Below, piece by piece: positions 4,379-57,041 of a DNA stretch of 64,000 nucleotides (within the stretch, counting starts at the first letter, position 1; each line of letters starts with the position of its first letter). Both the position numbers and the translations under genes were made by a program. The notes below the pieces were generated by a model. That model saw only the letters and a program-made list of their open reading frames with translations. It was not told the DNA's origin and did no database searches. This DNA is from Coriobacteriaceae bacterium (GTDB taxonomy: Bacteria; Actinomycetota; Coriobacteriia; Coriobacteriales; Coriobacteriaceae): positions 1 to 64,000 of the forward strand of contig JAUNDT010000004.1 of assembly GCA_030525945.1 (NCBI GenBank), written 5' to 3'.

Positions 4379-5860
4379 ATGCGCCAGGGTTTCGATAACG
4401 AGAAGTACATCGCCAGCCAGGCCGAGCACATCAAGGAGCGCATCGCCCAGTTCGGCGGCAAGCTCTATCTCGAGTTCGGCGGCAAGCTCTTCGACGATTA
4501 CCATGCGAGCCGCGTGCTTCCCGGCTTCGAGCCCGACAGCAAGTTCCGCATGCTCAAGAGCCTGGCGGAGGATGTCGAGGTCCTCATCTCCATCAACGCG
4601 AACCACATCGAGAAGAACAAGGCGCGTGGTGATTTGGGCATCACCTACGACGAGGATGTCCTGCGCCTGGCGGACATCTTCCGCTCTAACGGCTTTTTGG
4701 TGGGCGCCGTGGTGCTCACGCAGTACTCCGGGCAGCCCGCTGCCGATCAGTTCCGCCGCCGTCTGTCCATGCTCGGCATCACCTGCAAGCTGCATTATCC
4801 CATTGAGGGCTATCCGCACGACATCGATCTCATCGTGAGTGAGGACGGGTACGGCAAGAACGAGTTCGTCGAGACGACGCGTCCGCTCGTCGTGGTGACG
4901 GCTCCCGGCCCTGGTTCGGGCAAGCTCGCGACCTGTCTGTCGCAGCTCTACCATGAGCATAAGCGCGGCGTCGCGGCCGGGTATGCCAAGTTCGAGACCT
5001 TCCCCGTGTGGAATCTGCCGCTCAACCATCCCGTGAACATCGCCTACGAGGCCGCTACGGTCGACCTCGACGATGCCAACATCATCGACCCGTTCCACCT
5101 GGAGGCGCACGGCGTCACCACGGTGAACTACAACCGCGACGTTGAGGCCTTCCCGGTGGTCAAGGCCCTTATGGAAAAGATCTTGGGCGAGAGCCCCTAC
5201 ATGAGCCCCACCGACATGGGCGTCAACATGGTGGGCAACGCCATCTCCGACGACGCCGCGTGCCGCGAGGCCGCGAACATGGAGATCGTCCGCCGCTACT
5301 TCACCGCCGCCGTGAACGTCAAGCGCACCGGCTGCGGCTCCGAGCAGGTGGACAAGCTCAAGGCCATCATGCAAAAGGTCGGCGTGAACAAGGACCTGTC
5401 GCCCGCCCGCTCCGCCGCACTGCTCAAAGAGGAGACCACCGGGTCTCCCGCCGGCGCCATGGTGCTGCCCGACGGCACGGTCGTGACCGGCAAGACCTCA
5501 ACGCGCCTGGGCGCCGCGAGCTCCCTGGTCATGAACGCGCTCAAGGCGGTCACCGGCGTGGACATGGAGCTCGAGGTCATCTCCAATGACGCCATCGAGC
5601 CCATCAGCCGCCTCAAGACCAGCCAGCTCGGCAGTGTGAACCCGCGTCTGCATCCGGACGAGACGCTCATCGCGCTCTCCATCACCTCCGCCACGAGCGA
5701 GGTTGCCGCGCGCGTGCTGGCCGGCCTGCCCAAGCTGCGCGGCTGCGACGCGTTCTTCTCGGTGATCATCTCCAGTTCCGATGAGGCGCTGTTCAAGAAG
5801 CTCGGCATCAACGTGTGCTGCGAGCCCAAGTTCGAGCGCAGCGGGTACTACCACCGCTAA
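4379..5860 (+). CDS. DUF1846 family protein
   Basis: A cytoplasmic protein of 493 residues, the usual full length of the DUF1846 family, whose function is not established. It begins MRQGFDNEKYIASQAEHI and contains the conserved VVTAPGPGSGKLATCLSQLY (a P-loop-like stretch) and LNHPVNIAYEAATVDLDD. The ATG at 4379 has a good Shine-Dalgarno (GAGAGGGAG); the in-frame ATG at 4292 does not. The gene ends 3 nt before the Xer recombinase gene, so the two are probably cotranscribed. Type I hairpin elements lie upstream. Confidence 0.9.
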   Translation: MRQGFDNEKYIASQAEHIKERIAQFGGKLYLEFGGKLFDDYHASRVLPGFEPDSKFRMLKSLAEDVEVLISINANHIEKNKARGDLGITYDEDVLRLADIFRSNGFLVGAVVLTQYSGQPAADQFRRRLSMLGITCKLHYPIEGYPHDIDLIVSEDGYGKNEFVETTRPLVVVTAPGPGSGKLATCLSQLYHEHKRGVAAGYAKFETFPVWNLPLNHPVNIAYEAATVDLDDANIIDPFHLEAHGVTTVNYNRDVEAFPVVKALMEKILGESPYMSPTDMGVNMVGNAISDDAACREAANMEIVRRYFTAAVNVKRTGCGSEQVDKLKAIMQKVGVNKDLSPARSAALLKEETTGSPAGAMVLPDGTVVTGKTSTRLGAASSLVMNALKAVTGVDMELEVISNDAIEPISRLKTSQLGSVNPRLHPDETLIALSITSATSEVAARVLAGLPKLRGCDAFFSVIISSSDEALFKKLGINVCCEPKFERSGYYHR

Positions 5861-53581: not shown

Positions 53582-54328
53582 TTACAGGGCGAGTCCGAGT
53601 GCGACGAGCGCGGCCGAGCAGGCGAGCGCAGCTATGTCCGCGGCGCGCAAGGGGTAGCGTTTGCGAGAGCTCTCACGCGTGCGCAGGTAAAAGCCGCGCT
53701 GCTCCGCTGCCAGGGCCGACCCTTCTGCTTTTGCGACCGATTGCGTGATCAGGGGCACGAAAAGCGGCAGCATGAGCTTGAGCTTTTTGATGGGGTTCGC
53801 GCTGTCAAAGGTGACGCCGCGGGCGGTTTGGGCCTCCATGATCGCATCCATCTCGTTCATGAGCATCGGAACGAATCGCAGGGCGGTGGTGAAGGAGAAC
53901 GCGTAACGGTAGGGGATGCGGAGCACCTCCACGCAGGCGTTTGCGAGGTCGGTCGTGCGTGTGACCATGAGCATGAGCGCCAGCGGCAGCGCAACGAGCG
54001 CGAGCCTCATGGAGGCTTTCACACAGGTGATGATCGTCTCGGGTGCGAGCGCTTGTCCCGCCGGCACGCCGATCTGCTCAAAGAAAAGCTGCAGGACAAG
54101 CGTGGCGGCGGCCACCGGTATCACGATATTGAGCAGGCTCACCAGGCGCGGGGCCGCTTGCGCACTGAGTGCGAGCGCATACACGAGAGCCAGTAGCCCT
54201 AAGAGGGCGAACAGGGAATCAGTGACAATCGTCGCGATGATAAACGACGTCGCGAGCGCGAGTTTTGCGACGGGGTTGAGCCGGTGCAGCGGAGTCGCTC
54301 CCGACAGGTAGTCCAGGACATTACGCAT
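53582..54328 (-). CDS. ecfT: ECF transporter transmembrane component EcfT
   Basis: Membrane scaffold of an energy-coupling-factor importer, 248 residues. It begins DYLSGATPLHRLNPVAKLAL, the standard EcfT start, has about five membrane segments, and carries two coupling-helix Arg motifs: AQTARGVTF and EQRGFYLRT. These arginines contact the ATPases. The gene overlaps ecfA by 8 nt and is last in the operon trp leader-ecfS-ecfA-ecfT. Confidence 0.93.
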   Translation of the reverse strand: MRNVLDYLSGATPLHRLNPVAKLALATSFIIATIVTDSLFALLGLLALVYALALSAQAAPRLVSLLNIVIPVAAATLVLQLFFEQIGVPAGQALAPETIITCVKASMRLALVALPLALMLMVTRTTDLANACVEVLRIPYRYAFSFTTALRFVPMLMNEMDAIMEAQTARGVTFDSANPIKKLKLMLPLFVPLITQSVAKAEGSALAAEQRGFYLRTRESSRKRYPLRAADIAALACSAALVALGLAL

Positions 54329-56204
54329 GGCGTATCAGCTCCTCGGTGATCTTGATGAGCTCCGCTACGCTGCGGGCGCTTGCGAATGCGGGGTGCACAT
54401 GTTCGGATAGGCGGCCGGACAGCTCCATGATCTGGGGCGGGGAGATGCGCCCGAGCTCCACGAGCTGGGGGCCGGAGAACACTTCCTGCGGGGTGCCCTC
54501 ACCGACGATGCGCCCCTGGGCCATGACGGCGATGGTAGTTGCGAACTCATGCGCGAGATCCATGTCGTGGCAGATCATGACCACCGTGGCTCCCGCCTCG
54601 GCCTGCGAGCGCACAAGTTCCATGACCGTGCGCCGCTCGCGGTAATCGAGACCGCTCGTGGGCTCGTCCAAGATGATGACCTGAGGATCGAGCGCTAGCA
54701 CGCCGGCGAGCGCGACGAGATGCCGCTGCCCGCTCGACAGCGAAAACGGAGAGGCCTCGGCGGGAAGTCCAAGCGTGTCGATAATCGTTTGGGCGCGCAG
54801 CTTTGCCTCCTGAGGGTCCACTCCGTGAAGGAGGGGCCCGAACATGACTTCCTCCAAGACGGTGTTCTTGCATAGCTGCCGATCGGGGTTTTGGAACAAC
54901 GTGGCAACACGCGCCGCAATTGAACTCACGGGCGTGGTGCCCGTGTCCATGCCCGCCACGGTCACGGTGCCTTCGCTCGGCTTGAGCAGGCCGTTGAGAA
55001 GCTTTACCAGGGTCGTCTTTCCCGCTCCGTTCTCGCCAACGATGCCCATAATTTCGCCTGGGAGCACCTCAAGGGAGAGGTTCTGCAGCACGGGCACGGA
55101 GGAGCCGTATGCATACGAGATGGAGTCGACCGCGATGACGGATGGCGTGTCGTGCGCCGACGGGGCGGCAAAGGGCGCCGGCTCGGCTTGGGCGGGAGGA
55201 CATAGGGGCGCTCTGTGCTGTGCGAAAGGCGCGTCCTGCTTTACGGCCGGCTTCTGCTGGCGGGCGCGGGGAGCGTTGTTTCCTGGTGCAAGAGTGGCGG
55301 TTTGGAGTTCGTCCGCCTCGGGGATGAGGTCGGTGGCTTGCCGCTTGTCCTCCCCAGTGATAAGACTGGCGACAAGGGCCTCCGCCTCTTCCGGGCAAAG
55401 CGCGGTATTCCCGCCGCGAATCAGCCGGCGCTCTGCCAGGCCGTTCGACAGCCGCGCGGATAGTGGCACCTCGACGCCGATGCGCGTCAGCTCTGCCTCA
55501 CGTGCAAAGACTTCCCGGGGTGTCCCTTCGAACTCGATCCTGCCCTCGTTCATGACGGCGATGCGGTCGCAGAGCGTGGCGAGCTTCGAGGACGTCTGCT
55601 CAACCACCGCGATAGTCGTGCCGAGCTCGCGGTTGATGCGCTGCAGTGCCTCGAAAACGGCGCGCGAGCTCACGGGATCGAGCGCGGCGGTGGGCTCGTC
55701 GAGCAGCAGCACGCGCGGCTGCAGGGCGAGCATCGCGGCGATGGCGACCTTTTGCTTCTGCCCGCCTGAGAGCGCGGCGATCTCGCGGGTGCGCAGGTTT
55801 TCGATGCCGACGATGGAGAGCGCGTCGGCTATCCGCTGCTCGATGCGCCCGCACGGCACGCCGAAGTTCTCCAGGCCGAACGCAATCTCGTCCTCGACGA
55901 TTGCCGCGACCATCTGCGCATCGATGTCCTGCTGGACGTAGCCGACGAAGCGCGCGATCTCGGTAAGAGACGAGTCGCAGATGTCGCGCCCGCCCACGGT
56001 GACGGAGCCGTAGAAGCGCCCTGAAAAATGGTGCGGCGCAGCTCCCGACAAAACGCGCAGCAGCGTGGTCTTGCCCGAGCCCGACGGCCCGACAATCCCC
56101 ACGATCTCGCCCTCGCGAACGGCAAGGTCGACATTGCGCAGCGCCAGCTGGTCGCGCGCGCCATAGGAAAAGCTCAGCTTGTCGGCGGTGATAATCATGC
56201 CCAT
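54321..56204 (-). CDS. ecfA: ECF transporter fused double ATPase EcfA1-EcfA2
   Basis: Two ABC ATPase cassettes in one 627-residue chain, replacing separate EcfA1 and EcfA2. First cassette: [42 protein letters not shown] Pro/Ala-rich linker (about 285-360) follows. Second cassette: [29 protein letters not shown] (Ser instead of the first Gly) and [15 protein letters not shown] hydrolysis drives import through EcfT and an S component. It starts 6 nt after ecfS. The fusion is common in actinobacteria. Confidence 0.95.
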
Positions 56205-56210
56205 CCTGAT

Positions 56211-56789
56211 CTACTCCTCAAGGGCCAGCGCCGCCTTGACGGGCGGGTACAGAGCGCAGACGAGCACTGCGTTAAACAGGGACGTGGCGGTTACGACGGG
56301 CAGCATGACGAGGGCGATTTGCGTGGCGAAGCCCATGAGCATCATTTTGATAACGACGAATACGGTTCCCGAGATGAGGGTGGCAACGAAAGTCCCGACG
56401 GCGGGGACGAGCGCGCGGAGGCATCCGGGGGCACCGGCCTGCACGATGGTGGCCATGGCGATTGCCGCCAGGGATTCGGCGATGAAATCGATGCCGGGCG
56501 CGGTGGTGGTGAGTTGGATGACCGCCGCCGAGATGAACCCGATCACGAGGGATTGCGGGATGGTGGGTCGCACGATGAGGATGGTGAGGCAAAACGCCGC
56601 GATGATGAACTCCGGGGCAATGGCGCCGCCCGAAACGGCGGCGATCGCCTTGCCCGCCGTGAAGTTGAGGATGAAGCCGGCGGCGAGCAGGATGGCAAGC
56701 AGGACGAGGTCGCGAATGCCGAGGCCCGGGCGCTCGGGTGCGGCCACGGTTCTCAGCTGCCCTAAGGGTTCGGATTGCATTGGATGCAT
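56211..56789 (-). CDS. ECF transporter S component, probably tryptophan-specific
   Basis: Membrane substrate-binding subunit of 192 residues with about six hydrophobic segments. The first helix has an AxxxA pattern (LVLLAILLAAGFILNF) expected for docking on EcfT. Sequence alone does not give the substrate. The upstream leader peptide with three Trp codons and an attenuator (56859-56988) indicates that the operon responds to charged tRNA-Trp, so I infer tryptophan import, analogous to TrpP-type S components. ATG 56789 has GAAAGG upstream. It is the first gene after the attenuator. Confidence 0.8.
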   Translation of the reverse strand: MHPMQSEPLGQLRTVAAPERPGLGIRDLVLLAILLAAGFILNFTAGKAIAAVSGGAIAPEFIIAAFCLTILIVRPTIPQSLVIGFISAAVIQLTTTAPGIDFIAESLAAIAMATIVQAGAPGCLRALVPAVGTFVATLISGTVFVVIKMMLMGFATQIALVMLPVVTATSLFNAVLVCALYPPVKAALALEE

Positions 56790-56858
56790 GGCGTTGCCTT
56801 TCAGTGTGATGTGCGCAATGGGAGTGTGGAAGGGAAAGTGCATGACGCGAGGGGCAAC

Positions 56859-56884
56859 AAAAAGCCCCCGGTCGCACCGGAGGC
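56859..56884 (-). terminator. Attenuator terminator before ecfS
   Basis: On the minus strand GCCTCCGGT (56884-56876), loop GCG, ACCGGGGGC (56872-56864) and TTTTTG. The stem is 9 bp with one G/T pair. It stands between the Trp-rich leader peptide and ecfS, 70 nt before the ecfS start. Confidence 0.85.
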
Positions 56885-56958
56885 CTTACGAATAGCTAGA
56901 TATGTCTAACAGATAGGGCTCACCGACGACCGGCCGAAGACGCGTCATGCCACCACCA
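56859..56958 (-). promoter_or_regulatory. Tryptophan attenuator (Trp codons, antiterminator, terminator)
   Basis: The Trp codons are at 56958-56950. CCGGTCG (56933-56927), inside the leader's Ala-Gly-Arg codons, is complementary to CGACCGG (56874-56868), which spans the terminator loop and second arm; GG and GAGCC beyond it can extend pairing to GGCCTCC. A ribosome stalled at the Trp codons would cover about four to five codons and leave CCGGTCG free to form the antiterminator. A ribosome reaching the TGA would mask it and allow the terminator. Confidence 0.75.
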
Positions 56959-56988
56959 GTTGTTGAGGGACGTGAAATTCTTCGACAT
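56920..56988 (-). CDS. Tryptophan-rich leader peptide
   Basis: A 22-residue leader peptide: MSKNFTSLNN, then WWWHDASSAGRR. Three consecutive TGG codons occur at codons 11-13. The ATG at 56988 is preceded by AGAGAGGAG, a strong ribosome site, about 9 nt upstream. An extended -10 promoter lies 45 nt further up, and the terminator begins 35 nt after the TGA. Trp is the rarest amino acid, so a run of three in a short ORF before a terminator is the hallmark of ribosome-mediated attenuation. The peptide itself is presumed to have no function beyond sensing. Confidence 0.85.
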   Translation of the reverse strand: MSKNFTSLNNWWWHDASSAGRR

Positions 56989-57032
56989 TGTTCGGTGCTC
57001 CTCTCTACGTACGAGATTGAATCGTTGGTCGC

Positions 57033-57041
57033 ACTATAGCA
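57033..57041 (-). promoter_or_regulatory. Extended -10 promoter of the ECF transporter operon
   Basis: On the minus strand TGC-TATAGT (57041-57033), an extended -10 element, with no good -35. The transcript would begin near 57026 and enter the Trp leader. Confidence 0.6.

Follow-up and report, generated by a model that had tools for sequence, protein, structure and literature searches.

A Predicted Tryptophan-Codon Attenuator in Front of a TrpP-Like ECF Importer Operon in Coriobacteriia

The ECF Operon and Its S Component

The stretch of DNA analyzed here, below called the window, is 64,000 nucleotides long and covers positions 1 to 64,000 of contig JAUNDT010000004.1 from a Coriobacteriaceae bacterium (GCA_030525945.1). 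Three genes on its minus strand make up an ECF transporter operon. The first, ecfS (56211-56789), encodes a TrpP-like ECF S component of 192 amino acids, assigned by Pfam PF17099, its predicted fold and an AxxxA motif. It is followed by a fusion of ecfA1 and ecfA2 (54321-56204), in which two ECF ATPases matching TIGR04520 and TIGR04521 above cut-off are joined in a protein of 627 amino acids, and by ecfT (53582-54328), which encodes a transmembrane component of the CbiQ family (PF02361, E=5e-22). The start of ecfS is most likely at 56789, where an ATG is preceded by AAAGG, rather than at the ORF start at 56843.

The match of the S component to Pfam TrpP (PF17099) has an E-value of 1.8e-5 and a score of 25.0 bits, the cut-off being 27.2. 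Among the orthologues, those at loci L110 (44.4 bits) and L117 (38.7 bits) pass this cut-off, and those at L040 and L116 are unmatched. A profile search of the sequences of solved structures with the S component gave nothing significant. The AlphaFold2 model, which was made with 48 orthologues, has a pLDDT of 90.9, and the 21 best PDB matches in VIA-align comprise S components, BtuM and related subunits of the CbiM type, with Z-scores from 9.9 to 15.8 that lie well above those of unrelated entries. The Foldseek E-values are weak (0.14 and worse) although the probability is near 1. Both alanines of the AxxxA motif in helix 1, A32 and A36, are invariant, and this motif is needed for docking to the ECF module (PMC11109136). 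The fold, the motif in helix 1 and an operon shared with EcfA and EcfT mark the protein as an ECF S component, and an ECF ATPase is encoded downstream of ecfS in 67 of 68 loci. The preliminary description had spoken of an ECF vitamin-type transporter; the ECF part of that name stands, while the vitamin-type part has to be replaced by the narrower designation of a TrpP-like S component. Tryptophan has been named among the ECF substrates, and trpP is among the six S-protein genes of Bacillus subtilis (PMC11487621). At L007, L012, L043, L061, and other loci a second, diverged copy of ecfS (about 45% identity) is found directly 3' of the first, with no leader of its own; it is possibly meant for a second substrate.

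The genome to which the window belongs is 99.99% complete, and no match to TrpA, TrpB, TrpB2, or TrpC was found in it. Tryptophan itself must therefore be imported, and the ECF operon is probably a main source of it. Many gut Coriobacteriia with this importer lack TrpA, and within the genus of the window's genome, Collinsella, only G001 and G027 among the genomes sampled have it. In the stretch read at the trp locus of G001 no leader with a run of Trp codons was found.

The Leader Region

Upstream of ecfS, also on the minus strand, a lipid kinase gene ends around 120 nt ahead of a short leader ORF. An extended -10 promoter element, TGCTATAGT (57033-57041), is followed by the Shine-Dalgarno sequence AGAGGAG (56998-57004) and by the ORF itself (56920-56988), whose 22 codons, MSKNFTSLNNWWWHDASSAGRR, run from the ATG at 56988 to the TGA at 56922-56920. 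Three consecutive Trp codons, TGGTGGTGG (56950-56958), are in frame with the Shine-Dalgarno sequence and the start, and are the candidate regulatory codons. Region 2, CCGGTCG (56927-56933), begins 16 nt past the last of them and would constitute the 5' strand of an antiterminator, while the 3' strand, region 3 (CGACCGG, 56868-56874), takes up the loop and the top of the 3' arm of an intrinsic terminator, GGCCTCCGGT-GCG-ACCGGGGGCT plus a U tract (56859-56885, with the U tract at 56863-56859). The extended -10 element, the 22-codon ORF with three TGG codons and the terminator ahead of ecfS had all been pointed out in the preliminary description, and all were read in the sequence again.

An AAAGGAG-like site is located in the same place in nearly all orthologues, and TG-N-TATAGT is found 36-74 nt before the Shine-Dalgarno sequence of every Collinsella leader listed. 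A promoter scan of the leader region found no full sigma-70 promoter with a -35 element. A simple terminator scan listed nothing at the leader terminator, probably because the scan extended the stem into the U tract. When the window was scanned with Rfam no family reached its gathering score, and the T-box model (RF00230) was unmatched.

The mutually exclusive pairing proposed earlier for CCGGTCG and CGACCGG holds both in the sequence and in computed folds. For the latter a ribosome footprint of 12 nt downstream was used (PMC4833913), and the third Trp codon was taken to be in the A site of the stalled ribosome. When the 5' RNA is removed as it would be by a ribosome stalled at this codon, region 2 pairs with the 3' arm of the terminator, and every late transcript length has this antiterminator as its minimum-energy fold, with -29.5 kcal/mol at full length. 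With the RNA under a ribosome at the stop codon taken away instead, the terminator alone forms (-18.9 kcal/mol); the terminator hairpin as such is computed at -18.7 kcal/mol. In the ribosome-free fold the leader codons pair with the stretch adjoining region 2, and a terminator is seen. Five relatives have the antiterminator as their minimum-energy fold over a range of nascent lengths that precede completion of the terminator. Several relatives have a terminator that at full length exceeds the antiterminator in stability, and the switch must there be kinetic.

Conservation of the Leader in Coriobacteriia

In the class Coriobacteriia, 165 of 298 genomes contain an ecfS orthologue, and 121 orthologous loci were read. 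At 101 of these a leader with a Trp run is present. The leaders belong to three families, and the run is WWW across the 101 loci, with WW in L005 and L102. The other 20 loci comprise 15 with a T-box, one with WAW (L065/L157), one where TrpB2 comes first (L042/L170), two that are leaderless, and one at a contig end (L008). At L042/L170 the leader stands before a TrpB2 gene located upstream in the ecfS operon. L100 and L101 have lost the leader ORF and kept the terminator with GTTGACCGG, and both genomes encode TrpA.

The N-terminal part of the leader peptide is variable in both length and sequence. The Trp run, its distance to region 2, and the terminator show little variation, and the run itself is nearly invariant. 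The offset of 16 nt between Trp run and region 2 is common to most loci, and 97 of 98 leaders use GGT as the Gly codon in this region. A covariance model of the leaders gives E-values of about 1e-10 to 1e-25 in Coriobacteriia, and in other Actinomycetota it gave only weak, apparently chance matches. Two of its candidates, L176 in G449 and L177 in G352, were rejected as true leaders, as neither has a Trp-run leader before a Trp gene; both look like chance matches. The preliminary description had proposed that the upstream region should be aligned across Coriobacteriia. In that alignment the Trp run is kept with few exceptions, and the antiterminator pairing is kept with compensatory changes, as had been anticipated.

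Two loci are unusual. L108, which is counted among the 101, has the Trp-run leader CAWWWRTIS together with an unrelated downstream hairpin and a highly diverged ecfS. L109/L184 is found in G275, a genome placed in the T-box family, and has a Coriobacteriaceae-like ecfS with a Trp-run leader; it represents either a gene transfer or a misbinned contig.

Many of the 101 loci are close relatives. The pairing was evaluated on the 58 diverse sequences left at less than about 90% similarity, of which four come from other loci. In this set 85.8% of the antiterminator cells hold a standard pair, against 15.6-52.7% for slid versions. Nine antiterminator cells are changed on both sides, versus 4.3 in shuffles (1/500). 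Three antiterminator pairs are changed on both sides, which is not above shuffles (180/500), the core pairs being nearly invariant. For the terminator, 26 cells are changed on both sides, versus 10.7 expected. A compensatory change is seen in the close relatives L060 and L061 (GGTCAAT/ATGACC versus GGTCTAT/AGACC), and it also switches a peptide residue from Gln to Leu. Other compensatory versions of the antiterminator include one of 14 bp in L093, GGTCGATG/CATCGGCC in L040, and CGGATTA/TAATCCG in L175. When the codons after the Trp run are recoded synonymously, the real pairing is stronger than the recoded ones at p<0.05 in 26 of 54 loci, with a median p of 0.05 and one locus above 0.5; the combined p of 4e-20 is nominal, since the loci are related. 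The support for the predicted pairing is thus found in the cells, the spacing, the recoding and the changes between groups.

T-Boxes on Orthologous Operons

Fifteen Eggerthellaceae-like loci (L039, L041, and L110-L122) lack the Trp run and were for that reason considered as refutations. They were rejected as such when UGG T-boxes were found instead: all 15 have a T-box-like leader with a UGG specifier, and the T-box sequence is mostly GGTGGCACC. Twelve of these T-boxes were scanned with Rfam. They lie 70-560 nt ahead of the ecfS match on the same strand and score 56-74 bits with E-values of 1e-9 to 1e-14; this is under the Rfam gathering score of 93, and standard annotation would therefore miss them. 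L039 also contains a second strong T-box (109 bits) at 4434-4681 on the opposite strand, whose specifier is ACU (Thr) by the same alignment.

The T-box loci lie in another clade of the ecfS tree, and L040, which has a Trp-run leader, is found inside it (support 100/94). The two sensors thus seem to have been exchanged, while the long branches of the tree make finer statements unsafe. Judged from sequence, one ecfS gene family is placed under two unrelated predicted sensors of tRNA-Trp, and the replacement of one RNA regulator by another thereby becomes a directly testable question. The suggestion of the preliminary description that the S component imports tryptophan gains support from the TrpP match, from the UGG T-boxes of the orthologues, and from the absence of TrpA, TrpB, TrpB2, and TrpC.

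Other Targets of the Leader Design

With the covariance model, leaders are also picked up ahead of a symporter of the SNF family (PF00209) in one Eggerthellaceae-like genus. These leaders (L153, L154, L155, L156, L178, and L179) include loci without an adjacent ecfS, and G121 has two leader copies, one ahead of the symporter and one ahead of ecfS. TnaT of Symbiobacterium is a Trp transporter of the SNF family, and by analogy the sodium symporter may be TnaT-like. Leaders are further found before TrpB2 (NF009057/TIGR01415), the indole-salvage tryptophan synthase beta, in eight genomes (L170-L174 and L181-L183). Some of them use a different core, GGATTA/TAATCC, and in G042 TrpB2 and ecfS are located in one operon behind the leader. 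In most of the symporter and TrpB2 leaders the helix starts at a distance of 15-18 nt from the last Trp codon, also in leaders that end upstream of the helix. L154b, L172, and L182 depart from this, and several helices do not individually exceed shuffles.

It is probable that Coriobacteriia have a tryptophan-starvation regulon governed by ribosome-mediated attenuators, which comprises the TrpP-type ECF importer, the SNF-family symporter and TrpB2, and that the attenuator and the UGG T-box have been swapped on ecfS operons, perhaps more than once. If this is true, the regulon and the swap offer a natural setting in which two sensors of tRNA-Trp can be compared side by side on a single gene.

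Proposed Mechanism and Alternatives

The leader very probably acts as a transcription attenuator of the ribosome-mediated type, with charged tRNA-Trp as its signal and a dedicated ECF importer of tryptophan under its control. We infer that transcription starts just downstream of 57033 and that the 22-codon leader is translated. With ample tryptophan the ribosome would clear the three UGG codons, halt at the UGA and cover region 2 (56933-56927), so that the terminator forms and transcription stops ahead of ecfS. At low levels of charged tRNA-Trp the ribosome would stall on the UGG run, and region 2, 16 nt further along, would remain just clear of it. The free region 2 could then pair with the loop and 3' arm of the terminator, RNA polymerase would continue into ecfS-A1A2-T, and the resulting read-through should raise the uptake of tryptophan.

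A short Trp-containing leader ahead of a transport gene is also what is seen in tnaC, and the peptides share the conserved core NNWWW....G(R/Q). The leader might accordingly be a TnaC-like arrest peptide, where free tryptophan binds to the stalled ribosome and induces the operon at high tryptophan. This is highly improbable, as the residues past the Trp run vary freely, and as RNA pairing accounts for the conserved Gly-Arg/Gln (the Gly codon is GGT in 97 of 98 cases). The leaders of L153, L155, and L156 stop before region 2 and yet keep the spacing between Trp run and region 2. The orthologous operons have UGG T-boxes, a kind of sensor that answers to uncharged tRNA rather than to the free amino acid. 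The arrest residues of TnaC include a proline before the stop, whereas the C-termini of the leaders vary (GRR, GQR, GRS, GRW, GRL, G-stop), with no conserved proline in that position.

It could also be that the attenuator works as described, but that the ECF substrate is a precursor or relative of tryptophan, such as indole, anthranilate or Trp peptides. In G042 the attenuator leads TrpB2 and then ecfS, and TrpB2 makes tryptophan from indole, which would suit such a substrate. The window's genome, however, has no match to TrpB/TrpB2, TrpA, or TrpC, hence neither indole nor anthranilate could supply tRNA-Trp in it. Pfam moreover groups the family with the tryptophan transporter TrpP, and tryptophan is listed as an ECF substrate (PMC11487621), making this variant very unlikely. 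There is next to no likelihood that the arrangement is a product of chance, that is, a short ORF with a TGG run that happens to lie beside a terminator downstream of the lipid kinase gene and has no regulatory role. The position of that gene, ending about 120 nt before the leader ORF, would agree with it, and the bare pattern is weakly specific and not very rare in one genome, a reversed-pattern control also matching once in the window's genome. Still, chance is refuted by conservation, seen in the recurrence at orthologous loci, the conserved promoter and the model E-values to 1e-25.

Comparison With Known Systems

The mechanism proposed here for the ECF operon, attenuation by a stalled ribosome, is a classical one found in textbooks, while its target, the lineage and the exchange between T-box and attenuator appear to be undescribed in the searchable literature. 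The literature searched, in which subscription journals are thinly covered, yielded no report of an ECF transporter or TrpP being controlled by attenuation, and an earlier description may exist. A note by Korolev et al. from 2015, cited in PMC4833913, reportedly deals with Trp attenuation in Actinobacteria. On the present reading, trp attenuation of the classical kind would reach beyond biosynthetic genes to uptake by an ECF system. A probable substrate and a probable signal are thereby given to an ECF importer that is uncharacterised, although widespread among Collinsella and related gut Coriobacteriia.

In Corynebacterium and Streptomyces classical attenuators have been predicted ahead of the trp operons, and they have also been predicted before trpS, in a study where Coriobacteria are unmentioned (PMC1262725). 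The trp attenuators of these two genera, which are of the same phylum, and enterobacterial trpL likewise have two or three UGG codons in the leader peptide and a mutually exclusive antiterminator and G+C-rich terminator. They control biosynthesis, however, while the one in the window would control uptake (ECF S-A1A2-T) in a genome where the trp synthesis genes were not found. Its antiterminator has the core CGGTC/GACCG, which draws on the loop and the 3' arm of the terminator, unlike in those attenuators. TrpP of Corynebacterium glutamicum has the name alone in common with the S component, and is set apart by its description as a potential regulatory protein (PMC11995493).

Trp T-box riboswitches also sense the charging of tRNA-Trp and relieve a terminator, and they occur before orthologous ecfS genes. 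They bind the tRNA directly and need no leader peptide, whereas one is predicted in the window. TrpP (YhaG) of B. subtilis is of the same family as the S component, PF17099, and is likewise connected with tryptophan; trpP is regulated by TRAP, and we know of no leader-peptide attenuator for it. In the Escherichia coli tna operon, tnaC likewise specifies a leader peptide whose action depends on Trp, and a Trp transporter is among the genes that follow it. When it comes to the signal the two differ, as in tnaC free Trp brings about arrest by way of the peptide sequence, and Rho takes part, while the leader in the window combines a codon run with an intrinsic terminator.
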